Source of the DNA: Kiloniellaceae bacterium
Lineage (GTDB): Bacteria; Pseudomonadota; Alphaproteobacteria; Kiloniellales; J153
Length of the DNA stretch: 33,616 nucleotides
Reading direction: 5' to 3'
Assembly (NCBI GenBank): GCA_021776055.1
Contig: JAJFGP010000058.1
Location: forward strand, 1 to 33,616
Made by a program: the position numbers and the translations under genes. Below the pieces are notes generated by a model. That model made no database searches. It was given only the letters and a program-made list of their open reading frames with translations, and was not told the origin of the DNA. Shown here in pieces: positions 273-27,443 of this stretch (position 1 is its first letter; the number at the start of each line of letters is the position of its first letter).

Positions 273-776
273 CTAGCGCTTGCCCGGCGCGTCCGCATCG
301 ACACCGAGGCCGAGTAAGTTACCGGCCGATGCCGGGTCGACGGAAACCCCATTGGCTTGCGCTGCGATCGCCGCCTGACGAACGATCTCGTCGAAGCCGT
401 CGATCGACGATTCAAGACGCACGGAGGCCCCACCGCCACGCAAGGTGAGTTGCCAGAATCCGCCGCTGTTCTCCCGCTGCTGACGCCGGGTGCCATAGTA
501 GCGCAGCCTCAGCCGGTCGAGCGTCTGCCAGGGCACGGAGCGGGAAATCAGGCCCGCCGCCGAAATGCCGTCGCCGGTGACGGTGACCTGCACGAGCTGG
601 CGTTGCAGGGTGCGCAACCCAAAGACGAGGAAAAGCAGGGCAATACCGCCAAAAATGGCGATGATCGCCGGCATCGGCGGGCCGGCGATCAAGACGCCGA
701 GGCCGACTCCCAAGCCGACGGCGGCACGCACGTAGTCGCCGACCAGCGCCCGGCGCGGATAGCGATGGACCGTCAT
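273..776 (-). CDS. Small membrane protein, function unknown, last gene of glycan operon
   Basis: The protein has 167 residues and I do not recognise a named family. Two hydrophobic segments lie at about residues 16-30 and 34-53, forming a hairpin in the inner membrane. A soluble C-terminal part of about 110 residues follows. The alternating hydrophobic pattern after the membrane hairpin (LVQVTVTGDGISAAGL, then VPWQTLDRLRLRYYG) resembles a bacterial PH-like domain, in which a short strand-rich segment follows two helices; this is inference. Its ATG at 774-776 overlaps the stop of the upstream deacetylase gene by 4 nt (ATGA type), so the two are almost certainly translationally coupled. A role in the same envelope-glycan pathway is inferred only from context. 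Confidence 0.75.
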   Translation of the reverse strand: MTVHRYPRRALVGDYVRAAVGLGVGLGVLIAGPPMPAIIAIFGGIALLFLVFGLRTLQRQLVQVTVTGDGISAAGLISRSVPWQTLDRLRLRYYGTRRQQRENSGGFWQLTLRGGGASVRLESSIDGFDEIVRQAAIAAQANGVSVDPASAGNLLGLGVDADAPGKR

Positions 777-1591
777 GCCGCTCCCCGGGCTACCTCTCGC
801 GCCGCCGCTGTGGGGCCGGGCGCCGCGGCCGCGGCCACGGCCTCCGCGATGGTGACAAACCGCACCGCCGGGTGGGTGCGCAAGGTGCCGAGCAGCCGGT
901 CGAGAAAATCCCAGGCGGCGGCATCGTGGGCCGCGTGATGGCTGAGGATTCCGCTCGGTTCGGCCGCATCGCCGGTGCCGCTGCGGCGGCGATGCAAGTG
1001 AGTGACCAGCAGATCAAGCGCAACCGATTCCCCGGCGAATCCGCGCGGCGCTGCCCAGCGCATGAGATCGACGTGGCAATTCACCTGAACGAGGCCGGGC
1101 GCCGTGTGCGCGCTCCGGCGTGGCCCATAGGTCGAGAGGGCGGCAAAGCCCAGCGTCGGCAAGATCGGTGCCAGTCCCGCATCAATGCGATTCCAGGGCG
1201 GCACCAGGACCGGTTGGGCATGGGTTCCGAACAGGCTCGCCATGCGCGCGTGACCGCGCGCCAACTCCTCGCCCATCACGGCGGGCGGCCGATTTCCGCC
1301 CAATTCGGCTTTCTTGTCCGCGGGTGGCGCATGGTTGCGATGGGCGAAGCCGTGTTGCAGTGGCGTGACGATGGTGCCGGCCGCCGCGATTCTCGCCGCG
1401 AGCGCCACCGAGGCGCGCGCGGGAATGACCGCCAGCGCAATCGGTGCCGCGTGCCGCGCCGCCAGGTCGAGTAAGCGCTCGAACGCCGGGGTCGGCTCCA
1501 CCGCGTCGTCGTCCCGCCACCAAACGGTTGCACAGGCACCGGCGCTCGCCCAGGCATCGAGCTCGCGCGTTAGATCCGGCCAATCGGTCAT
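773..1591 (-). CDS. Polysaccharide deacetylase family protein
   Basis: The 272-residue protein has the NodB/polysaccharide-deacetylase signature elements in order. WWRDDDA at 24-30 carries the catalytic-base and metal Asp pair. HGFAHRNH at 80-87 supplies metal-binding His residues. PPWNR at 131-135 corresponds to the family's R-P-P motif, and SHH at 217-219 to the late catalytic His. Members remove N- or O-acetyl groups from sugars in a metal-dependent reaction. There is no signal peptide, so it probably acts in the cytoplasm on a nucleotide- or lipid-linked precursor, which fits its place next to glycosyltransferases. The start overlaps the stop of the upstream glycosyltransferase (ATGA, 1588-1591), and its own stop overlaps the following membrane-protein gene. 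The substrate cannot be told from sequence. Confidence 0.85.
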   Translation of the reverse strand: MTDWPDLTRELDAWASAGACATVWWRDDDAVEPTPAFERLLDLAARHAAPIALAVIPARASVALAARIAAAGTIVTPLQHGFAHRNHAPPADKKAELGGNRPPAVMGEELARGHARMASLFGTHAQPVLVPPWNRIDAGLAPILPTLGFAALSTYGPRRSAHTAPGLVQVNCHVDLMRWAAPRGFAGESVALDLLVTHLHRRRSGTGDAAEPSGILSHHAAHDAAAWDFLDRLLGTLRTHPAVRFVTIAEAVAAAAAPGPTAAAREVARGAA

Positions 1592-2748
1592 CCGCTCACT
1601 ATACCAGCGGCACGGGCAATGATCTGCGCCGTTTTCTCTGCTCCGCCCACGTCCAGGCCGGCAAAACCGGATGGCGCCGGGGGCCTCGACAGGGCGCGGC
1701 GAATCGCCGCCGCCAGGCTCACCGGCGACAGCTCCGCCTCGGGCAGAACAGTGACAGCACCGCGCTCACCCAGCAAACGGGCGCGCAGGGATTGCTCCGT
1801 CTCGCCGCGGCCGGCGAAGGGGACGACGACGGCGGGAATCTTCGCCGCCAGCACGTCGAGAACCGTGTTGTAGCCGGCTTGGCTGATGGACAAACGGGCG
1901 CGCGCCAGCAGGGCGCCGAAGTCCGGTCGCGCGCGCTCGACCACCACCCCCGCCGGTGCGGCAGCCGCAAACGTGCGAAACACCTCATCCGACAAGTTGT
2001 CGCCGGCCAAGATGCGCCACGGCGCGTCCGCCAACGGGCTGGACGGCCGCGCGGCCATGGCCGCGGCAATGAGCGGTCCGGCCACGGCGCCGCCGCCGGT
2101 CGATACGACCACCTCGCCGGACGGCGCCGCGTCCGTGGGTTCGCCTGCGGCAGCTGCCTCGGCCACATAACCGGTATAGCGGGTCTGTGCCGCCAACTCG
2201 CGTGCCCGCGGAAAACTGCGCTCCAGGGGTAAGAAGGCGGGATCGCCGTGAACCAGAAGCTGATCGAAATAGCGGCGGAAGGTGGCCATCATCCAACGTG
2301 CCTTCTCGGCCGAGCGCGGGGCGCTCAGCACGTCGCGCAGGGAGCACACGATGTGCGGCCGCGGTTGGGCGGCCTGGGCCATGTCGAGCAGCGGCAGAAG
2401 CTCGAAACGCATCAGCCGCCGGCCAAAGGGAAACATCTCGATGAGCAGAACCTTCGGGCGCTGCTGGCTATAGATCGCCTGCAAGTCGGCGGCGCGGGCG
2501 GTTTTCCAGGGCTCGTCCACCGGCTGGCCGTCGGCATCGACCAGCATGGAGAAGCTGTCGTCGCGCGCGCGCAGGGGCGGCAGCTGGACAAGCGTGGCGC
2601 CGCCCAGGTCCAACCCCGGCACGGGCAAGCCGCCGCTGACCAACACCACGTCCAGGCCGGCCCGGTCCATGGCCCGGGCAATCAGCGCGGCGCGGCGCAC
2701 GTGGCCGATGCCAAGCAGGTGCTGGACATAGAAAAGAACGTCGGTCAT
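1588..2748 (-). CDS. MurG-like (GT-B fold) predicted glycosyltransferase
   Basis: The 386-residue protein opens with a strand and a glycine-rich loop, FYVQHLLGIGHVRRA (6-20), the N-terminal acceptor-side signature of the 'predicted glycosyltransferase' group related to MurG. The C-terminal nucleotide-sugar domain shows STGGGA at 216-221, SQAGYNT at 289-295 and RGETEQ at 314-319. These match the donor-binding loop and the conserved 'Q.G.NT..E' type region of GT-B enzymes. It should transfer a sugar from a nucleotide donor at the cytoplasmic face. It overlaps both neighbours by 4 nt (histidine phosphatase upstream, deacetylase downstream). A second protein of the same type is encoded at 5869-7110, so the operon contains two distant paralogues. 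Donor and acceptor are unknown. Confidence 0.82.
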   Translation of the reverse strand: MTDVLFYVQHLLGIGHVRRAALIARAMDRAGLDVVLVSGGLPVPGLDLGGATLVQLPPLRARDDSFSMLVDADGQPVDEPWKTARAADLQAIYSQQRPKVLLIEMFPFGRRLMRFELLPLLDMAQAAQPRPHIVCSLRDVLSAPRSAEKARWMMATFRRYFDQLLVHGDPAFLPLERSFPRARELAAQTRYTGYVAEAAAAGEPTDAAPSGEVVVSTGGGAVAGPLIAAAMAARPSSPLADAPWRILAGDNLSDEVFRTFAAAAPAGVVVERARPDFGALLARARLSISQAGYNTVLDVLAAKIPAVVVPFAGRGETEQSLRARLLGERGAVTVLPEAELSPVSLAAAIRRALSRPPAPSGFAGLDVGGAEKTAQIIARAAGIVSG

Positions 2749-3371
2749 GGCGCCATCCCGGCTTGATACAGCGGGATGTTGAGATGCTCGATCCGGAGGG
2801 CGCCGCCGTCGTCGAGGGCGAAACGTTGGGCGCAGCCATCCTGCAGTTTCGCCGGCGCGCGCCCGGTCATGTCCCAGCTGGCGGCGCGGGCCAGAACGGC
2901 ACGGATGACACCTTTGTGGGTGATCGCGACGACCGGTCGGCGGCGCACGGCGAGCGCGGCTAACAGAGGTGCTAGCCGCGCCTGCACCTGGCGCGGTGAT
3001 TCACCGCCCGGTGGACAGAAATCGAGGCCGCGCGCTTCCGCTTCGGCGGTGCCGGGGCCGTCGATCCGACGCATCTCCGCAAGACTGTGGCCCTCCCAGA
3101 CTCCCCAGTGCATCTCCACGAGGGCCGGTTCGGGACACAGGACGTTGCGCGCCGCTGCGGGCAGAAGGATCTCGGCGGTCTCCCGAGTTCGCGCTAGGGG
3201 GCTTGTTAGCCAATCCCAATCGCCGGCGGCCTCGGTGATCTCGGTCGGCAGGCACCAGGTTCGTACGGTGCGCCGGCCGGCGTCCGACAGGGGCACGTCG
3301 GTATGGCCCTGGATACGCCCGGCGGCGTTCCACTCCGTCGGTCCATGGCGGATAAGAACCAGGGGAATCAT
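2745..3371 (-). CDS. Histidine phosphatase family protein (phosphoglycerate-mutase-like)
   Basis: The 208-residue protein begins MIPLVLIRHGPTEWNAAGRI. RHGPTEWN (8-15) contains the phospho-accepting His9 and the first catalytic Arg. LTSPLARTRETAEIL (55-69) carries the second Arg, Glu86 lies in LVEMHWGVWEG, and the second catalytic His is H152 in AITHKGVIRAVL. The full catalytic set of the branch-1 histidine phosphatases is therefore present, and length is normal. I chose ATG 3369-3371 although the frame is open much further upstream, because the RHG motif must sit near the N-terminus and this ATG overlaps the upstream stop in the ATGA arrangement used throughout the operon. It may dephosphorylate a sugar-phosphate or lipid intermediate of the glycan pathway; the substrate is not readable. 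Confidence 0.9.
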   Translation of the reverse strand: MIPLVLIRHGPTEWNAAGRIQGHTDVPLSDAGRRTVRTWCLPTEITEAAGDWDWLTSPLARTRETAEILLPAAARNVLCPEPALVEMHWGVWEGHSLAEMRRIDGPGTAEAEARGLDFCPPGGESPRQVQARLAPLLAALAVRRRPVVAITHKGVIRAVLARAASWDMTGRAPAKLQDGCAQRFALDDGGALRIEHLNIPLYQAGMAP

Positions 3372-4501
3372 GGTCCGGTCACCTCGGCAAGAATCGCCCC
3401 CAAGCGGGCGGCGGCTTGATCGAGGGTATGTTCGCTGGCCACGGTTGTCAGGGCTGCCTCGGCCATCGCGCGGCGCTGAGCGGGTGCCGCCAATAGTTTG
3501 TCCAACGCGCCGGCAAAGGCCGTGATGTCGCCGGGCGGAGTAAGCACACCGGTGCGGCCGTTGCGCACGATGCTGGCAATTCCGCCGCTGGCGCCGGCTA
3601 GGACCGGCAAACCGGCGGCCTGGGCTTCGAGCAACGCCATGCCATAGGCCTCGTTGTGCGCGGGCCAGACCAGCAGGTCGCTGGCGGCATACAGGGCCGG
3701 CAGACGGTTGCCCGGCCAGGCGCCGAGGACGTGGACGCGCCCGGGTGTTGCCCCAGCGAAAGCCTCCGCCACCGCCGGCCGGGCCGGGCCGTCGCCGACG
3801 ATCAGAAGCTGCCAGTCGCGTTCCGGCACGCCCGCGAGCGCTGCCGCCAATTGCCGGTAAGAGGTGAGCTTGTCGCCGGGCCGCATCATGGCGACAGCCA
3901 GCAACCATGGCGGGCCAGAGGGGATGCCGAATTGCGCGGCCAAACGTGCGCGCTCGCGGTCGCGCCGGGCGGCGGCGGTGCGGAACGGTGCCGCATCGAG
4001 GAATGGCAAAAGCGAATGCACCCGGGTGGGATCGGGTAAGCACGCTGTATCCGCCGGGTTCAGGGAGATAACAGCGGCTGCGTGGGCCAGCGCGGCTACC
4101 GTGGCTTGGTGGCCGCCTGCCCATGGCCCCGTGGCCCGCTTGTTGGCAAGGGATGCCTCCACCGCGATGTACGGAATTCCCAACCCGGCGCTCACCGTTG
4201 GCCCGAGCCAATCCGGGGCTGTGTAGTAGAGATGATAGGTCATCCAGGCGCGCGGTTGCTCCGCCGCGGGTTGGTCGCGGTAACGGCGCAACAACCGCTC
4301 GGCGGTCGCTGCCCCGGTGCGGGCAATGCGCGCTTGATGAGCCGGATCGCCGGCTCCGTCACGGCTGCGCAAGCGGCTGGCCAGGTCCACTTGATTCCCA
4401 GCGCGGCGCAGGGCGGCCATGAGCAGCCGTGCTATCCGCCGGTCGCCCGAAGGCTGCGGATGATCCGGCGGTTTCATGGGGGCGTAGAAAGCGATCCGCA
4501 T
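3368..4501 (-). CDS. Glycosyltransferase, GT4-like
   Basis: The 377-residue protein has a GT-B layout. The N-terminal half begins MRIAFYAPMKPPDHPQPSGD, where a loop with SGD follows the first strand as is usual for acceptor binding. The C-terminal half has LLAVAMMRPGDK (200-211), LLIVGDGPAR (232-241) and the E-x7-E donor motif: E284 to E292 in AHNEAYGMALLEAQAAGLPV. These are hallmarks of family GT4 retaining enzymes. In GT4 enzymes 'R..GDK' often stands as 'R...EKG'; here K211 is retained. The stop overlaps the phosphatase start by 4 nt, and 39 nt separate its start from the upstream glycosyltransferase stop (4541). It probably adds one sugar in a multi-step assembly. Confidence 0.88.
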   Translation of the reverse strand: MRIAFYAPMKPPDHPQPSGDRRIARLLMAALRRAGNQVDLASRLRSRDGAGDPAHQARIARTGAATAERLLRRYRDQPAAEQPRAWMTYHLYYTAPDWLGPTVSAGLGIPYIAVEASLANKRATGPWAGGHQATVAALAHAAAVISLNPADTACLPDPTRVHSLLPFLDAAPFRTAAARRDRERARLAAQFGIPSGPPWLLAVAMMRPGDKLTSYRQLAAALAGVPERDWQLLIVGDGPARPAVAEAFAGATPGRVHVLGAWPGNRLPALYAASDLLVWPAHNEAYGMALLEAQAAGLPVLAGASGGIASIVRNGRTGVLTPPGDITAFAGALDKLLAAPAQRRAMAEAALTTVASEHTLDQAAARLGAILAEVTGP

Positions 4502-4540
4502 GCGGGGCTCTTGTGCTGCGATGGGTGGCGCTTGGCCCGC

Positions 4541-5818
4541 TTATTGGGCGGCTGCAGCGGTCGTCGCCAGACCAAACCGCGCTGCCAACGTATCGATACC
4601 CGCAGCCAAGGAAAAGTCGGCGCGCACACGCCGGCAACCGGCGTCGCCCAGGCGCGCGCGTGTTTGTGGATCGCGGATCAGGCGGTTCAGGGCGGCCGCC
4701 AGCGCCGCCGGATCGCCCGGCGCCACAAGAAGACCGGTCGCCTCATGGTCGATAAGCTCGGGGATGGCCGAGACCGTGGTGGAGAGGCAGGCCAAGCCTT
4801 GGCTTTGTGCTTCCATCAGCACGTTTGGCAGGCCATCGCGGTCGCCGTTACCGGCGATGCGGCTGGCCAGGACGAAAAGATCGGCGCGCCGGTATTCGGC
4901 CAAGACCCGTTCCTGCGATTGCGCCCCCAACCAGGCAATGCGATCGCCGAGGCCGCGGGCGCTGGCTTGGGCCGCCAGGCTCCGTGCCTGTTCACCGCCC
5001 CCGATGTGGACCAGGCGCCAGTGTACGTCGGCGGGCAGGCGGGCCAACGCATCGATCAGATCGTCATATCCTTTCTTTTCGACGGCGCGACCGACCGAGA
5101 GAAGAAGCACCGGATCCGCCGCTGCCGATCCGTTTCGGGTCGGGCGTGCCAGGGTTGGACTCAACTGGGGCGGCGGCGGCAGGCGGGCGAAGTCGAGGCC
5201 ATGATAGGCCAGCGATACCTTGTTCGGGTGCGGCGCCAGGCTGGCTAGGTGATCGCGCGCAACGGCGCTGCAGGTGACCACCCAATCGGCGGCGGCGAGC
5301 TTTTCCCGCTTTTCCCATTCGGGCGTCGTCCAAATATCCTTGGCGTGTGCCGAGGCGCACCAGGGCAGACCGGTCATGAGCGCCGCATACCGCGCGACCG
5401 AGGCCGGTGTGTGCAGGAAATGGGCATAAAGACGTGTTACGCCCGCCGGCAGTTCGGTGGCAAGGACGCAGGCCTGGCCGAACCGGCGAAGGCGATTGCG
5501 GCTGCGTTCACGCGCCAGATCACGCCGGAAAACCCGCCAGGCGGCGCCATAACCAGGTAGTTGCCGGGCTCGGCGCCAAGCGGCCAGCACGCGCTGCGGC
5601 TGCTCGTGCAGGTACTCCGGCAGATAGGTTACCGGCGCGGTGATCTCGCGATGGATGGGGTGTGTCGCAGTCTCGGTGGGCCGGCGCAGGGAATAAAGGT
5701 GCAGCGGCAATCCGCGTTGCTGCAGGGCATGAATCTCCTGCGCGATGAAGGTTTCCGACAGGCGCGGATACCCTTTTACGACAACGGCAATCGTTCCAGT
5801 GGGTGCGGTGCTCGTCAT
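4541..5818 (-). CDS. Glycosyltransferase, WcaL/GT4-like
   Basis: The 425-residue GT-B protein starts at ATG 5816-5818. Near the N-terminus it has VVVKGYPRLSETFIAQEIHAL, a pattern ('YP..SETFI..E') typical of WcaL-like colanic-acid and exopolysaccharide glycosyltransferases. The C-terminal domain has LLSVGRAVEKKGYDDLIDAL and then LFVLASRIAGNGDRDGLPNV followed by LMEAQSQGL. In the donor-binding E-x7-E element the first position is Asp (DGLPNVLME), a tolerated variation in this subgroup. The WcaL-like sequence is the best hint that the operon builds an exported or surface polysaccharide. It sits second in the operon, 50 nt downstream of the first gene. Confidence 0.88.
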   Translation of the reverse strand: MTSTAPTGTIAVVVKGYPRLSETFIAQEIHALQQRGLPLHLYSLRRPTETATHPIHREITAPVTYLPEYLHEQPQRVLAAWRRARQLPGYGAAWRVFRRDLARERSRNRLRRFGQACVLATELPAGVTRLYAHFLHTPASVARYAALMTGLPWCASAHAKDIWTTPEWEKREKLAAADWVVTCSAVARDHLASLAPHPNKVSLAYHGLDFARLPPPPQLSPTLARPTRNGSAAADPVLLLSVGRAVEKKGYDDLIDALARLPADVHWRLVHIGGGEQARSLAAQASARGLGDRIAWLGAQSQERVLAEYRRADLFVLASRIAGNGDRDGLPNVLMEAQSQGLACLSTTVSAIPELIDHEATGLLVAPGDPAALAAALNRLIRDPQTRARLGDAGCRRVRADFSLAAGIDTLAARFGLATTAAAAQ

Positions 5819-5868
5819 GCGAGATAAGGTTAGGAAGCCAGACAGCCGCCCGTCAAGGTACAGCCGCG

Positions 5869-7110
5869 CTACTTCCCGCCGCGCCCGGCGGCAACCGTTA
5901 GGCTGGCGCGCGCCGGAAAGGCGCGGTGGCGCTCGTGCAGCCAGTTTTGCGATAGCTCGACCACGTTCTTGCGGCCATCCAAAAGGCCGGGGACGATCAC
6001 GCTGGAGGGCAGCGGCTGGGTCGGCAAGCGGCGCAATGCTTGGGCCATGACCCGCGGATCGCGCACCCCTTCATCGACCAGCATCCGCACAAGGCCGAGC
6101 TCTTGTGCCCGGGAGGCGCGAATGTACTGTTCGCGGCGCGGGACGGTGCGCGGAATCAGCAGCGCCCGCTTGTCGAACGACAAGACCTCGCAGAAGGTAT
6201 TATAGCCGCCCATGCAGACAACGCCCTTGGCGCGCGCCATGAGACTTTCGATGTGGGCATCGAAGGTGATCGCCTCGACCTTATCGAGGCGCGCCGCCCG
6301 TTGCATAAATTCGGCCTGGAATTGCGCGCCCATGAAGGGCCCGAGGACGAGCAGGGCCGGATCGGGCAGATCCGGATCGGCCTCGTAAGCCGAGAGCACC
6401 CAATCGATGATAGCCTCGCCATCGCCGCCGCCGCCGACGGTGACCAATAGGTACGGATCGACGATCTTTTCCGGGGCGAATAAGGGCCCGGTTTCGGGCA
6501 CATGCCGGTTGAGATAACCCGTATAGGTCATTCGATCGTGCACCCAGTCGGGCACGCCCATGCCAGCCAGGGGGTTGCAAATCTGCGGCAGTCCATAGAC
6601 CCAGATCGCATCGTAATAGGCGCTTAGCGCCGGAAGGACGTTCTTGCGCTTCCATTCCGGCTTGAGAAGGACCGGATCGTCCATGACATCGCGCAGGCCG
6701 AGCACACAAGGTGTGCCGCGCGCTTGCATCATGGCCAAGGTCCGGCGCACCTCGCCGCGCAGGCCCAGGGGCTCCTTGTCCACGATAAACAGGTCCGGAT
6801 CGAAAATGTTCGCCGTATGTTCGACAATCGAGGCGCGAATAGCCAACGTCTGCTCGATGTCGATGTGCAGATTCAGCGACGTGTATTCGCCATTGCGCAG
6901 CTTGATGACTCCCGGAATGCGCACGAAATCAACGCGCGAGCGAAAGTCGAAGCTGCCGATGATCGGCGAGCCGGAGAGAATCAAGACCGACAGATTGCTT
7001 TCGGCGCCCACCAGACTGTGGGCAATCTCACGGCATCGGCGCAAGTGGCCAAGACCGAAACTGTCATGGCTGTAAATGAGAACGCGTTTGCTTTGGCGGC
7101 CCTGCCCCAT
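5869..7110 (-). CDS. MurG-like predicted glycosyltransferase, first gene of glycan operon
   Basis: This 413-residue protein begins MGQGRQSKRVLIYSHDSFGL and continues GHLRRCREIA. The 'YSHD..GLGH.RR' element is the characteristic opening of the predicted glycosyltransferase group that also contains the product of 1588-2748 (H..G.GH.RR). The C-terminal half has LLVTVGGGGDGE, for nucleotide-sugar binding, and MGGYNTFCEVLS, corresponding to SQAGYNT in the paralogue. The start ATG 7108-7110 is preceded by a strong purine-rich site (GGGGGAGGG) about 7 nt away, so it is probably the entry point for the whole minus-strand operon. It is divergent from the ABC-like gene, with 192 nt between them. Acceptor and donor are unknown. 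Confidence 0.83.
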   Translation of the reverse strand: MGQGRQSKRVLIYSHDSFGLGHLRRCREIAHSLVGAESNLSVLILSGSPIIGSFDFRSRVDFVRIPGVIKLRNGEYTSLNLHIDIEQTLAIRASIVEHTANIFDPDLFIVDKEPLGLRGEVRRTLAMMQARGTPCVLGLRDVMDDPVLLKPEWKRKNVLPALSAYYDAIWVYGLPQICNPLAGMGVPDWVHDRMTYTGYLNRHVPETGPLFAPEKIVDPYLLVTVGGGGDGEAIIDWVLSAYEADPDLPDPALLVLGPFMGAQFQAEFMQRAARLDKVEAITFDAHIESLMARAKGVVCMGGYNTFCEVLSFDKRALLIPRTVPRREQYIRASRAQELGLVRMLVDEGVRDPRVMAQALRRLPTQPLPSSVIVPGLLDGRKNVVELSQNWLHERHRAFPARASLTVAAGRGGK

Positions 7111-7302
7111 GCCGCAGCCCTCCCCCTGTATCGGAGCGTATCGCCCCGTTGGCCCAGACTATGGCACACCCCCAGGCACAAGGGGAAGGGCGGACCTTTG
7201 ACAGAATTGTGAAGCACCGAGGTCAGTTTACGGGGATACGGCCATGGGTTAACGTCCGCCGATCGCCTGGGCGCCGCGCCAAGGCCACCACAGATTATCG
7301 TC

Positions 7303-10017
7303 GTGATGGAACCGAATCTCTTCAAATACATCTGGCGCCATTCGAGACGCGAACAGCTCGGTATTCTCAGCACGGTGTTGCTGTCGCTGCCGTTCTATTT
7401 TCTGGCTCTCGATTTGCCCAAGGGCATCGTCAATCGCGGCATCCAGGGCCAAGGCTTTGCTGGCCCGGATTCGACGCGGGCTTTTCTGGCATTCGACCTA
7501 CCGTTTGGAGAGGCGTTGACCGGCGCGCCGGTGGCCTTGTTCGACGGCTTTGCCTTGACCCAGCCGGAGTACCTGCTGGCGCTCAGCTTCGCCTTCTTGA
7601 TCATGGTCGCGATCAACGGCGGCTTCAAATTCGTCATCAATACCAACACGGGGCGTATGGGCGAGCGCATGCTGCGCCGCCTGCGTTATGAGCTGGCCGA
7701 CCGGGTTTTGCGTTTTCCGATCCCCCAGATGCGCCGGGTCAAGCAGGCCGAGATGGCGACCATGATCAAGGATGAGGTGGAGCCGTTGGGCGGCTTCATC
7801 GGCGATGCCTTCATTGCTCCGGCCTTCCTGGGCGGTCAGGCGATCACGGCCATGGCTTTCATTCTGCTGCAAAGCGTATGGCTCGGCTCGGTGGCGGCGG
7901 CGATCGTGCTGGTCCAGGCCTTCTTCATTCCGCGCCTGCGGCGGCCGATCCTTCGCCTCGGGCGCGAGCGGCAACTCACCGCGCGGCGACTGGCGGGACG
8001 GGTAGCGGAAATCGTCGACGGCGCCACCGAGGTACATGCCCACGATGCGTCGAACCTGGAGCGGGCGGATATGGCGGCGCGCCTTGGCCGCATCTTCAAC
8101 ATCCGCTATGAGATCTTCCAGCGTAAGTTCTTCGTCAAGTTTCTGAACAACTTTCTGGCGCAACTAACGCCATTTGTCTTTTACGCCGGCGGCGGGCTGC
8201 TGGCGATCTTCGGGCATCTCGACATCGGTTCGTTGGTGGCCGTCATCGCCGCCTACAAAGACCTGCCGGGTCCCATCAAGGAGCTGATCGACTGGGATCA
8301 ACGGCGCAATGATGTGCAAATCAAATACGATCAGGTGATCGAGCAGTTCCAGCCGGCCGATATTCTGGATCCGGAGCGCCAGGACCCGGACGCAGATGCG
8401 GGCCCGCCCTTGAGCGGTGAGATCGTTGCCCAGGCGGTCGGTCTGGTTGACGACAACAATAGCAAGGTGCTGGATTCGGTTAGCTTCCGGGCCGGTGTCT
8501 CCCAGCACACCGCCCTTATCGGCGCCGACGAAAGCGGCAAGGACCGGCTGACGATGATGCTCTGCGGCCTGGAGGTGCCGAGTACCGGGCGCCTCAAGAT
8601 CGGTGACCGCAATGTGGAGGATCTGCCGCAGGCGGTGACGGGCCGGCGCCTGTCGTACGTGGGGCCGGAAACCTATCTCTTCGCCCGGTCGGTGCGCGAC
8701 AATCTGCTCTACGGTCTCAAGCACCGGCCGATGCAAGACGCCGCCGACCGTGGTACGCCCGCTCGGACGCTTTGGTTTGCTGAGGCGGCCCGCGCCGGCA
8801 ACTCGACCCTCGATGTGACGGCGGATTGGATCGATTACGCCGCCGCCGGTGTGGCCGGACCCGAGGCGCTGACCCGGCAGCTTATCGAGGTCTTGGCCTT
8901 GGTGGAGATGGAAGACGACGTCTATCGCTTCGGCCTGGTCGGGACGGTCGATCCGGTGGCTCACCCGGACGTGGCCGAGGCGATCCTCAAGGCGCGGGCG
9001 GCCCTGCCGGAGCGGCTGGCGGCCGTGGATGCCCAAAGCTTGGTGGTCCGGTTCGATCCGGAGCGCTACAACGGCAATGCTACCTTGGCCGAAAATCTGT
9101 TGTTCGGCACACCGCGCAAATCGGAATTTGCCGGAGACGCCCTGGCCGAGAACGCGCTGATGACACGGGTGCTGGGCGAGGCCGGCCTGATCGATGATAT
9201 GCTGAGCATGGGTGTGAGTATCGCCCGCACCATGGTCGAGATCTTCGCCGGCTTGCCGCCCGGGCACCCGTTTTTCGATCAATATAGTTTCATCGACGCC
9301 GACTCCTTGCCGGAATACCGCAACCTGTTGACGAAGTTGGACCGTGTGGGCGAGGGCGCTCTTACGGTGGCCGAAAGTTTGTCGCTGCGCCGGCTGCCGT
9401 TCGCCTATGTGGAAGCGCGCCATCGCTTGGGCTTGATCGACGAAACCATCGAGCAAAAGGCGGTCAAGGCGCGACGTCTGTTTGCCGATCGCATGGCGAC
9501 GGTCGATCCGGGTGCGGTCGCCATCTATCGGCCGGATGCCTACAACGCCGCCGCCGCTCTGCAGGACAACATCCTGTTCGGGCGCCTGGCCTATGGTCAG
9601 GCCAAGGCCGAGGAGATCGTGGGCGGAGTCATGACGGAGATGCTCGATGCGCTGGGTCTGCGGGAGACCGTGATCGAGGCCGGGCTGAGCTATGAGGTTG
9701 GCGTTGGCGGCAAGCGCCTGAGTTCGAGCCAGCGGCAGCGGATCGGGTTGGCCCGTTCCCTGCTGAAACAGCCGGATTTGTTGGTTATCAACGATGCCCT
9801 GGCGGCGATGGACGATGCGACGCAGACGCGTCTCTTAGACAAGGTTCTGGAACACCGCCGCGGTCGCGGCGTGGTCTGGGCGCAACAGCGGCCGCGGGCC
9901 GGCGAGCGTTTCGATCGAGTCATCGTGCTGCGCGGTGGGCGCCTGGTGGCAGAGGGAAGTTTTGCCGAACTTAGCAAGCCGGGCTCGGCGCTGAGCGACC
10001 TTTTGGCAGCGGAATAA
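7303..10017 (+). CDS. Aberrant ABC-exporter-like protein with expanded, degenerate nucleotide-binding domain
   Basis: The protein has 904 residues counted from GTG 7303; ATG 7306 is an equally good start and neither has a clear ribosome-binding site. Residues 1-345 form an exporter-type transmembrane domain, with hydrophobic segments near 20-37, 90-108, 175-208 and 290-318. The C-terminal part is an ABC ATPase with altered motifs: Walker A reads GADESGKD (407-414), where GxxGxGKS/T is expected. The signature is LSSSQ (806-810). Walker B ends IND (829-831), with Asn and Asp in place of Asp-Glu. The H-loop His is Gln (Q861, in VWAQQR). About 390 residues separate Walker A from the signature, against roughly 100 normally. 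That stretch carries three Q-loop-like modules ending NLLYG (467-471), NLLFG (598-602) and NILFG (756-760). The reading frame is intact, so this is a maintained variant rather than a pseudogene. It probably moves or regulates a glycan or lipid; ATP hydrolysis is doubtful. Confidence 0.85.
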   Translation: MMEPNLFKYIWRHSRREQLGILSTVLLSLPFYFLALDLPKGIVNRGIQGQGFAGPDSTRAFLAFDLPFGEALTGAPVALFDGFALTQPEYLLALSFAFLIMVAINGGFKFVINTNTGRMGERMLRRLRYELADRVLRFPIPQMRRVKQAEMATMIKDEVEPLGGFIGDAFIAPAFLGGQAITAMAFILLQSVWLGSVAAAIVLVQAFFIPRLRRPILRLGRERQLTARRLAGRVAEIVDGATEVHAHDASNLERADMAARLGRIFNIRYEIFQRKFFVKFLNNFLAQLTPFVFYAGGGLLAIFGHLDIGSLVAVIAAYKDLPGPIKELIDWDQRRNDVQIKYDQVIEQFQPADILDPERQDPDADAGPPLSGEIVAQAVGLVDDNNSKVLDSVSFRAGVSQHTALIGADESGKDRLTMMLCGLEVPSTGRLKIGDRNVEDLPQAVTGRRLSYVGPETYLFARSVRDNLLYGLKHRPMQDAADRGTPARTLWFAEAARAGNSTLDVTADWIDYAAAGVAGPEALTRQLIEVLALVEMEDDVYRFGLVGTVDPVAHPDVAEAILKARAALPERLAAVDAQSLVVRFDPERYNGNATLAENLLFGTPRKSEFAGDALAENALMTRVLGEAGLIDDMLSMGVSIARTMVEIFAGLPPGHPFFDQYSFIDADSLPEYRNLLTKLDRVGEGALTVAESLSLRRLPFAYVEARHRLGLIDETIEQKAVKARRLFADRMATVDPGAVAIYRPDAYNAAAALQDNILFGRLAYGQAKAEEIVGGVMTEMLDALGLRETVIEAGLSYEVGVGGKRLSSSQRQRIGLARSLLKQPDLLVINDALAAMDDATQTRLLDKVLEHRRGRGVVWAQQRPRAGERFDRVIVLRGGRLVAEGSFAELSKPGSALSDLLAAE

Positions 10018-10038
10018 GCGGAATCAATAGGGGCGATT

Positions 10039-10043
10039 GGAGG
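10039..10043 (+). promoter_or_regulatory. Ribosome-binding site deciding a GTG start
   Basis: GGAGG at 10039-10043 lies 6 nt before GTG 10050. It makes this GTG the convincing start of the cyclic-nucleotide-binding protein, with only 32 nt between it and the stop of the ABC-like gene. Confidence 0.7.
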
Positions 10044-10049
10044 CTTAAG

Positions 10050-10502
10050 GTGAGTATCGAACAGGAAGTTGAAATTCTGCGTAAGATTCCTCTCTTCGCC
10101 AATATCGATCCGGCGAAGCTCAAGCTCATGTGCTTTGCCAGCGAGCGCTTGACCTTCAAGGCGGGACAATCGCTTTTCGATCAGGGCGATTCTGCCGATT
10201 CGGCCTATATCATCGTTGCCGGAGCCGCGGACGTGATCGTGACTACCGGCAAACCTTCGGTGGTCGCACATGTTGCGAAGAACGACATCGTCGGCGAAAT
10301 CGCTATTCTCTGCGATGTGCCGCGCACGGCGACGGTTACCGCGACCAGCGAGCTAACCGCTTTAAAAGTCACCAAGGACCTTTTCTTCCGCATGGTCACG
10401 GATTTCCCGGAGATGGGTGTCGAGGTTATGCGAGTTCTGGCACATCGGCTCGAGAATACGACGGCGGATCTCATAAAGGCGCGTGCCGCGGCGCGCGGCT
10501 AA
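10050..10502 (+). CDS. Stand-alone cyclic nucleotide-binding domain protein
   Basis: The 150-residue protein is essentially one cyclic-nucleotide-binding beta-roll. It has FDQGDSADSAYIIVAGAADV (43-62) and the phosphate-binding cassette GEIAILCDVPRTATV (82-96), with Glu83 and Arg92, the residues that normally hold the ribose and cyclic phosphate. The usual C-terminal helices follow (LFFRMVTDFPEMGVEVMRVL), but there is no winged-helix DNA-binding domain, so it is not a Crp/Fnr transcription factor. It lies between the ABC-like gene and the methyltransferase, with short gaps on both sides (32 and 12 nt), so it is probably an operon partner. I infer that it acts as a cNMP-responsive subunit or adaptor for the ABC-like membrane protein. 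The presence of both cassette residues suggests that ligand binding is retained. Confidence 0.88.
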   Translation: MSIEQEVEILRKIPLFANIDPAKLKLMCFASERLTFKAGQSLFDQGDSADSAYIIVAGAADVIVTTGKPSVVAHVAKNDIVGEIAILCDVPRTATVTATSELTALKVTKDLFFRMVTDFPEMGVEVMRVLAHRLENTTADLIKARAAARG

Positions 10503-10514
10503 CGGGGGCCACGG

Positions 10515-11069
10515 GTGAGCCGGCTCGATATCAATATCCGCCGCTTACAGGCGCAACGGGCCTGCCTGAATCTGATGGCCGAGCAGATCCGCGATCTGCC
10601 GGGGCCGGTCTTCGAGTTGGGGCTGGGGAACGGTCGCACCTACGATCACCTGCGCGAGCTATTGCCGGACCGGGAGATTTTTGTCTTCGACCGCGAGGTT
10701 GCCGCCCATCCCGACTGTATTCCGGATCCGGCCCATCTTTTTCTCGGCGACTTCCAGGAGACGCTGCCGCGCGCGGTGGACCGTTTCGCCGGGACCGTTG
10801 CGCTGATCCATGCCGATATCGGCTCGGCGAATGCCGCGCGCGATGCCCTGTTGGCGAGCGCCGTTGCCGGGTTTCTCCCGGTGTTGCTGCGGCCCGGCGG
10901 CCTGGTGGCAGCGGACCGCAATGTGGCCTTCGCCGAGGCTTTGGCCGTGCCGTTGCCGGCAGCCGTGGCGCCGGAGGTCTATTTTCTCTATCGGCAGGCG
11001 GCCGGGATCGAGTTGCCGGAAACGGGGAACGCCCGGTCGGGGGGGATCCGGGCGTTCCGTGCTCCGTAG
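10515..11069 (+). CDS. Class I SAM-dependent methyltransferase-like protein
   Basis: The 184-residue protein starts at GTG 10515 and has the Rossmann motif I ELGLGNGRTYDHLRE (34-48), followed by IFVFDREVAAHP, where the acidic Asp59 would bind the SAM ribose. LIHADIGSANAARDALLASA and FLPVLLRPGGLVAADR match later strands (motifs IV and VI) of the class I fold. It is at the small end for the family and ends shortly after the core fold, so a substrate-binding lid is minimal. It is the third gene of the plus-strand trio, 12 nt after the cNMP-binding gene. A role in methylating the product of the divergent glycan operon is a reasonable inference but not shown. Confidence 0.8.
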   Translation: MSRLDINIRRLQAQRACLNLMAEQIRDLPGPVFELGLGNGRTYDHLRELLPDREIFVFDREVAAHPDCIPDPAHLFLGDFQETLPRAVDRFAGTVALIHADIGSANAARDALLASAVAGFLPVLLRPGGLVAADRNVAFAEALAVPLPAAVAPEVYFLYRQAAGIELPETGNARSGGIRAFRAP

Positions 11070-26231: not shown

Positions 26232-26309
26232 GGGTCCTTCAACGCGGCCGGATTGTGTTTTCGTGCTGCATTCTCTTGCGGCCACGGCGGTTCGTGCTAT
26301 CGTTCTCGT

Positions 26310-27443
26310 GTGACCGACGGCCTGCGATCAGAGCGGCTGGCGCTTCCCCTGATGGAAGCTGCAGTGCGCTTAGGTATTAGCGCAGAGGCCCTGCGTCTTC
26401 GCCTGGAAAGGGGAGAGGTGCTGGGATTCGAACGCGACGGCACGTCTTTTGTCTACGTGAATGACCCTGCTGCGGAACGCCGCTTTGGCGGTGCGGCCGA
26501 TGATCTGCCGCCGGGCCTGTCAACCGGCCAGGTGGACCGGATACCATCGGACGGCACATTGCCGGTGGTGGTCGAGTTCCAGAAGATGGAGCTCACCCGC
26601 TTGTTGCGTGAAAACGAACGGCTAAACACCCGTCTCGACCAACTTTTCGAGGAAACGCGCCGCCTGCGGGATATGCAGCAGCGGGAACAGGTGTTGCGTC
26701 AGCAGGAACAGACCCTGCGCCGGCAAATCCAGGAGACCCTGGATCGCCTGACCAGCCGCCCGGCGTTGCCAGCACCGGATGAAACGCCCCCAGAACCACC
26801 TAAGGCGCGCCCGGCGCTGTTGCTGACTCGGACCATGGCCGGGAAAAACTCTAGCAAGAGTCCCGGCAAGAGCCCCAGCTGGAGCCGAGAGGACGCCACG
26901 CGCCGGCCCGGCCCGGCGTTTCTGGCGACCGGGCGCGTTGCCCGTAAGGTCGTCGGCGCCGACCGCCGTGAGCCGCACGCCGTCATGCCGAGGCCCATTC
27001 CAGGCAAACCGGCCGTACGGGATTTTGCCGCAACGCCGGCGCCCGCACCGGTACCGAGTGCCGCCGAGGACGCGGCGATCAGGCCTGAAGAGGCGGCGGC
27101 GCTGGCCGAAATTCTCAATGGTATCGGCCGGTCGCTACGCGATTCGGAAGCATTCCGCCGCTATCCGCCGATCAAGCCGGGATCGGCACCGCAACGTGCG
27201 GGTGACCGTCGTCCCGTTGCTTCCCGGCCCAGTCATGCGCCGGGTCACGCGACAACATCGATGCGCGCAACGGGAGTGGCGGCCGAGTCCCTATCGGCAC
27301 CAAAATCTCTGTCGGAGGAAGAATCCGCCCTGCACGCCATTCTCGATTCCATGGGGCCCACGGCGGAGGATCGGCGCAACGCCGCCCGAGATCTGGGGCG
27401 CCTGCTGCGCAAAGGTTTACCGTCACGGGCCGGTGAGCTCTGA
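26310..27443 (+). CDS. Unrecognised protein with MerR-like HTH, coiled coil and repeated C-terminal motif
   Basis: The 377-residue protein probably starts at GTG 26310 (MTDGLRSERLALPLMEAAVR). Residues about 10-55 resemble a small HTH: LPLMEAAVRLGISAEALRLR, then LERGEVLGFERDGTSFVYV. Residues about 95-150 are a strongly predicted coiled coil rich in Gln, Glu, Arg and Leu (LLRENERLNTRLDQLFEETR and RLRDMQQREQVLRQQEQTLR). A Pro/Ser/Lys-rich basic region follows (about 155-250), probably disordered. The C-terminus holds two similar motifs, EAAALAEILNGIG near 261-273 and ESALHAILDSMG near 338-349. I do not recognise the family. A DNA-binding, self-associating regulator or nucleoid-type protein is an inference. 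The long GC-rich frame with conserved domain order supports a real gene. It is followed by the NAD-GDH after a 102-nt gap. Confidence 0.75.
   Translation: MTDGLRSERLALPLMEAAVRLGISAEALRLRLERGEVLGFERDGTSFVYVNDPAAERRFGGAADDLPPGLSTGQVDRIPSDGTLPVVVEFQKMELTRLLRENERLNTRLDQLFEETRRLRDMQQREQVLRQQEQTLRRQIQETLDRLTSRPALPAPDETPPEPPKARPALLLTRTMAGKNSSKSPGKSPSWSREDATRRPGPAFLATGRVARKVVGADRREPHAVMPRPIPGKPAVRDFAATPAPAPVPSAAEDAAIRPEEAAALAEILNGIGRSLRDSEAFRRYPPIKPGSAPQRAGDRRPVASRPSHAPGHATTSMRATGVAAESLSAPKSLSEEESALHAILDSMGPTAEDRRNAARDLGRLLRKGLPSRAGEL

Follow-up and report, generated by a model that had tools for sequence, protein, structure and literature searches.

ABC exporters of the MsbA/TmrAB/TAP type combine a membrane domain (PF00664) with a nucleotide-binding domain (NBD, PF00005) and, by the usual assumption, cannot do without at least one functional ATP site. 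In heterodimeric exporters degenerate sites occur often, and the canonical residues are normally spread over both halves. The window analysed here, a 33,616-nucleotide stretch of DNA from a Kiloniellaceae bacterium (contig JAJFGP010000058.1), encodes a protein that shares the domain order and fold of these exporters and which is very probably an ATPase-deficient version of that fold with a triplicated helical unit. We refer to it as a pseudo-ABC protein, its fold and inactive motifs being well supported and its function being inferred from the evidence given below. It belongs to a large, unstudied family whose fold places it in the ABC exporter superfamily; our literature search, which left most subscription journals outside its reach, found no publication on it.

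Altered motifs and repeated units in the nucleotide-binding domain

The pseudo-ABC gene can start at a GTG or at the ATG one codon after it, the latter being the start point of its homologues (Table 1). In the encoded protein an ABC_membrane domain (residues 90-315) is followed by an NBD of the ABC_tran fold, which Pfam detects as two separated stretches, with gathering scores passed, and a conserved loop of about 40 residues (about residues 48-86) follows the first helix of the transmembrane domain (TMD).

Table 1. Coordinates of the pseudo-ABC gene, its parts and its neighbours in the window
Feature	Coordinates	Strand	Remarks
Pseudo-ABC exporter CDS	7303..10017	+	904 aa, GTG start, alternative ATG at 7306
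TMD, residues 2-355	7306..8367	+	highest conservation within the protein
A-loop position, residues 382-384 (VDD)	8446..8454	+	acid replaces aromatic
Altered Walker A GADESGKD, residues 407-414	8521..8544	+	
Repeat unit U1, residues 448-576	8644..9030	+	Q-loop strand and NLLYG, then helices and an AR helix (Arg565 invariant)
Repeat unit U2, residues 577-734	9031..9504	+	NATLAENLLFGTP, then helices, RHRLGL and an AR helix (Arg724 invariant)
Repeat unit U3, residues 735-838	9505..9816	+	YNAAAALQDNILFG, then helices, the signature helix (Arg818) and the Walker B strand
Altered signature LSSSQ, residues 806-810	9718..9732	+	
Altered Walker B LLVIND, residues 826-831	9778..9795	+	Asp to Asn at 830
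H-loop position, Gln862	9886..9888	+	
Stand-alone cyclic-nucleotide-binding-domain (cNMP) protein	10050..10502	+	150 aa; 42/42 complete loci
SAM methyltransferase (PF12692)	10515..11069	+	29/42 complete loci
Divergent glycosyltransferase, GT28-C-like (first of cluster)	5869..7110	-	38/42 complete loci
Glycosyltransferase family 4	4541..5818	-	37/42 complete loci
Glycosyltransferase family 4	3368..4501	-	38/42 complete loci
Histidine phosphatase superfamily protein	2745..3371	-	
Glycosyltransferase, GT28-C-like	1588..2748	-	39/42 complete loci
Polysaccharide-deacetylase-like protein	773..1591	-	271 aa; by eye only; 31/42 complete loci

In its NBD the A-loop, Walker A, Q-loop (with Pro455 at the position of the Gln), signature, Walker B and H-loop are all non-canonical and only the D-loop Asp is kept, so that every feature tested for membership among the active ABC ATPases failed except this one residue; four canonical ABC exporters that this genome also encodes do carry the motifs that were read out in them. 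The first-pass annotation had described GADESGKD, LSSSQ, IND (829-831) and Gln862 as altered within one intact frame, and all of these are present. It had also placed the Walker A and signature motifs about 390 residues apart; the distance is indeed far above the canonical one, though it measures 399 residues, against 104-107 in the four exporters of the same genome. The MsbA model TIGR02203 matches the protein at 141.8 bits against a curated cut-off of 602, and no NCBIfam cut-off is reached among the best 25 models.

In an alignment with the canonical exporters that this genome encodes, the protein has a single NBD, and past the Q-loop those exporters show a gap of about 290 residues; the canonical segment TIRANIAYG aligns twice, to the start of U1 and to U3, which constitutes direct evidence of duplication. 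In profile comparisons based on 168 sequences the units matched each other at 98% (E 1e-13) for U2-U3, 92% (E 5e-7) for U1-U2 and 78% (E 2e-5) for U1-U3; none of 60 column shuffles equalled the real score for any of the three pairs, and the alignments span the NLLFG helix and the helical pair that follows it. An earlier comparison with fewer sequences had given only weak homology for U1, which improved with 168. The similarity of three modules, whose motifs end at Gly471, Gly602 and Gly760, and the internal duplication of the Q-loop/helical region, both proposed from the letters of this stretch, are thus borne out by these comparisons. Each unit closes with a helix bearing an Ala-Arg pair (Arg565 in 168/168 sequences, Arg724 in 168/168 and Arg818 in 165/168), which we interpret as the signature helix of the respective copy, and Asn598, Asn756 and Gly760 within the units are invariant (168/168). 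As judged from sequence, the extra residues are two additional copies of a unit made up of Q-loop, helical region and signature helix.

An AlphaFold2 model of residues 358-904, built with 86 sequences, is that of a confident single NBD (pLDDT 93.9, pTM 0.88) in which the helix order repeats three times; the model of the whole protein, built with 22 sequences, is mediocre (pLDDT 77, pTM 0.65). In a Foldseek search the 251-residue NBD of TAP1 aligned with the NBD model over 542 columns with a TM score of 0.81 (target-normalised), the insertion being predicted to sit inside the NBD core that superposes on it. The top matches cover part of the query only (TMq about 0.38), which means that no solved structure among the matches listed covers the inserted units well.

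Family breadth, conservation and gene neighbourhood

Full-length homologues with 55-69% identity occur in 47 of 58 relatives of the same order, and the wider class has a match at E < 1e-100 in 79 of 240 sampled genomes, that is, in about a third of the alphaproteobacterial genomes sampled. A scan of GTDB contigs gave at least 540 confirmed loci, some of them in records labelled Betaproteobacteria, and plasmid records contributed 262 further matches, mostly from Rhizobium and Sinorhizobium; pSymB of S. meliloti 2011 is one of the plasmids concerned.

A motif census of 168 non-redundant family members found no member with more than two of the six canonical motifs, let alone all of them, which upholds the proposal of a non-canonical class; nor does any combine canonical motifs with an interval of about 100 residues, the Walker A to signature distance being 375-474 across the family (n=168). 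The A-loop aromatic is canonical in 5/168 members, with Asp or Glu at position 383 in 160/168; Walker A follows GxxxxGK[ST] in 6/168 and has Asp or Glu in place of the Ser/Thr in 135/168; the Q-loop Gln is present in 51/168, the signature LSGGQ in 1/168, the Walker B Asp-Glu pair in 6/168 (Asp being replaced by Asn in 109/168) and the H-loop His in 33/168, while the D-loop Asp is kept in 158/168. The Walker A Lys (104/168) and the Walker B Glu (86/168) are kept often enough for ATP binding or slow turnover to be possible. The replacements of canonical residues are patterned, not random. An acid at 414 combined with a residue other than Asp at 830 is found in 127 members and the reverse in 23, with 18 exceptions (n=168; Fisher p 3e-14 when kinship is ignored). 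Proven co-evolution was considered for this acid swap and rejected: on a tree of the TMD there are 4.5 pairs for it and 0.3 against (median p 0.125), which amounts to a trend.

The S. meliloti copy, like other distant members, has lost the P-loop Lys, and some distant members have no P-loop whatsoever, yet three NLLFG-type motifs can still be recognised in them. Four divergent members (L166, L167, L169, L174) have 1044-1080 codons and essentially no ATPase motif left, and such members occur in two or three copies in some genomes. In another lineage (L168, L170, L171) Walker A (GKS) and Walker B (DEG) look canonical, but the signature is SQTLRQ and there is no H-loop His, apparently a second and different route to a non-canonical site.

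A second copy of the pseudo-ABC protein, 86% identical, is encoded in the same assembly. Between the two copies dN/dS is 0.13 overall; it is lowest in the TMD (0.07) and U2 (0.08) and reaches its maximum, 0.26, in the Walker A lobe. Identity among pseudo-ABC orthologues is 0.77 in the TMD, 0.57 in the NBD (core) and 0.46 in the Walker A lobe, whereas orthologues of canonical exporters in the same order, taken as a control, rank the opposite way (TMD 0.62, NBD 0.70). Taken together, these patterns indicate that selection favours the TMD and the repeat units over the nucleotide site. A pseudogene, a frameshift or an assembly artefact, which the many non-canonical motifs might suggest, is refuted by full-length conservation across genera and classes and by the low dN/dS, and we give it practically no chance; the frame is therefore maintained, as had been supposed from the sequence of this one gene.

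In this assembly it is the whole cluster that occurs a second time: positions 292-10992 of the window match positions 11303-556 of another contig (G000:C54, L231) over 10.8 kb at 81.6% identity in DNA, and everything between the glycosyltransferase operon and the methyltransferase, both included, is covered. In that copy a TAG lies within the match to the first glycosyltransferase, and behind the methyltransferase comes another one, 57% identical to it. The second cluster could be either a real duplication or a contig of a related strain.

Among the 42 loci with full flanks the cNMP-binding gene is the invariant companion (42/42), in keeping with the operon partners predicted by the first-pass annotation, and four glycosyltransferases, all divergent, are each present in 37-39 of them. 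The family cNMP proteins, encoded downstream of the pseudo-ABC gene, have about 150 residues, keep the cassette and have no DNA-binding domain; the one in the window has both of these properties, its phosphate-binding cassette being GEIAI..DVPRTATVTA. The first glycosyltransferase of the cluster and the pseudo-ABC gene also go together across the 58 relatives, of which 46 have both and 9 neither (Fisher p 5e-8), the three mismatches all falling in fragmented or incomplete assemblies. The deacetylase-like protein, which has no Pfam, NCBIfam or PDB match, resembles a divergent polysaccharide deacetylase in the motifs RDDD, QHGFAHRNH and PPWNR. Two further frames of the window have no Pfam match, at 26253-27443 (+, 396 aa) and 273-776 (-, 167 aa). 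Some distant members (Ruegeria) have no glycosyltransferase or cNMP neighbours, so the link to glycans may not be universal.

In R. johnstonii 3841 the gene order is cyclase, Dpp/Opp-type ABC transporter, three glycosyltransferases, pseudo-ABC and cNMP, the adenylate/guanylate cyclase gene lying upstream beyond four ABC-transporter and three glycosyltransferase genes. A cyclase is nearby in only 3 of the 80 loci with flanks, and Dpp/Opp-type ATPase genes are found upstream in 49/80. A transporter of this type (double ATPase, binding protein, two permeases) adjoins the cluster in R. johnstonii 3841 pRL11 (L228), Azospirillum oryzae (L230) and S. meliloti ml46 (L147), and it may form one system with the pseudo-ABC protein and the glycosyltransferases. 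The nucleotide-sugar dehydrogenase near the R. johnstonii pseudo-ABC copy is probably, by gene counting, pRL110056, an O-antigen enzyme important for root colonisation (PMC11103875). The breadth of the family, the A-loop and Q-loop changes, the cNMP-binding partner, the linkage to glycosyltransferases and the inverted conservation had all been absent from the first-pass annotation.

Possible functions of the pseudo-ABC protein

The residues lost from the NBD are those that hold adenine, Mg2+ and the catalytic water, as well as those which close the partner's site, and a loss of normal ATP hydrolysis is strongly inferred from the sequence. The protein is probably a non-hydrolysing pseudo-ABC exporter which serves a surface-glycan pathway and is switched by nucleotide and/or the cNMP protein. 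The mechanism we propose, held with middling confidence, is that it would work as a homodimer (assumed) without normal ATP turnover, with the NBD block acting as a conformational switch or docking scaffold whose state would depend on bound nucleotide, on the cNMP-binding partner or on both, and not on a hydrolysis cycle. The conserved TMD would then gate or organise how the product of the neighbouring glycosyltransferases, a surface glycan or glycolipid, passes or is assembled, and the repeat units would form a docking or switching array. Contact between the cNMP protein and the pseudo-ABC protein is suggested by gene order. More tentatively, both ATP sites of the homodimer may be dead, with the catalytic pocket rebuilt as an acidic one by the A-loop and Walker A acids and the triplicated helical subdomain serving as a regulatory or docking array that the cNMP partner drives, making the system signal-gated and not ATP-powered, a version that we consider possible but doubtful.

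Other explanations can be weighed against the same evidence. The protein may move no substrate at all and be a signalling receptor or assembly scaffold, whose ABC fold relays the state of the membrane or periplasm to the glycosyltransferases via the repeat units and the cNMP protein. The loss of the ATPase residues, the strong conservation of the TMD and repeat units and the invariant regulatory partner all fit such a role, but the TMD keeps an exporter architecture and the core cluster was found to contain no other exporter-type gene for the glycan, and we regard it as rather unlikely. An ATP-driven glycan exporter with unorthodox chemistry is a further option, in which Walker A, with Asp/Glu for Ser/Thr, would have taken over the Mg2+ ligand from Walker B, where Asp has become Asn, and signature-like contacts would come in cis from the extra units. 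It would account for the finding that members have an acid at 414 or an Asp at 830 and rarely both, and for the mostly retained Walker A Lys; however, once kinship is corrected for, the acid-swap association is only a trend, the A-loop position is acidic in 160/168 members, the Gly-Gly of the signature and the H-loop His are mostly gone and there are distant members that have no P-loop altogether, all of which makes this chemistry distinctly improbable.

The protein could also be the degenerate half of a heterodimeric exporter (of the TmrAB, BmrCD or TM287/288 type), with a canonical partner half closing one working site. Exporters of this kind often have degenerate sites, and TmrAB is among the best Foldseek matches of the whole model; set against this are the alteration of Walker A, signature and Walker B in one and the same protein and the fact that none of 81 neighbourhoods encodes a canonical exporter half near the pseudo-ABC gene, and we consider this arrangement very unlikely.

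Returning to the pseudo-ABC exporter without normal ATP turnover, a family that has no canonical motif set, an NBD which evolves faster than its TMD and a tripled helical subdomain would demonstrate that evolution can retain the fold for work other than hydrolysis, and it would be a natural test case for the helical subdomain and for coupling without a power stroke. The gene also points to a probable surface-glycan locus, as yet uncharacterised, in roughly one in three of the sampled alphaproteobacterial genomes, and the locus occurs in the genetically tractable Sinorhizobium meliloti and Rhizobium johnstonii.

Comparison with known systems

Compared with the MsbA/TmrAB/TAP-type exporters, the protein of the window differs in having all six ATPase motifs altered and about 290 residues inserted between the Q-loop and the signature. 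Degenerate catalytic residues in an ABC exporter are a feature that it has in common with TmrAB, TM287/288, BmrCD, TAP and CFTR, but in these one site stays canonical and no repeats are inserted. In SMC/Rad50, too, a large insertion separates the lobe with Walker A from the one with signature and Walker B, but there it is a coiled coil, the ATPase motifs are kept and there is no membrane domain; the likeness of the split NBDs would be one of analogy and not of relation. With respect to the partner protein, stand-alone proteins of the cNMP type (TIGR03896) are encoded together with the ABC exporters of NHLP bacteriocins, as is the case in the window, whose own 150-aa cNMP protein matches TIGR03896 weakly (39 bits, the cut-off being 161). 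The NHLP exporters have a peptidase and export peptides, whereas the companions of the pseudo-ABC locus are glycosyltransferases.
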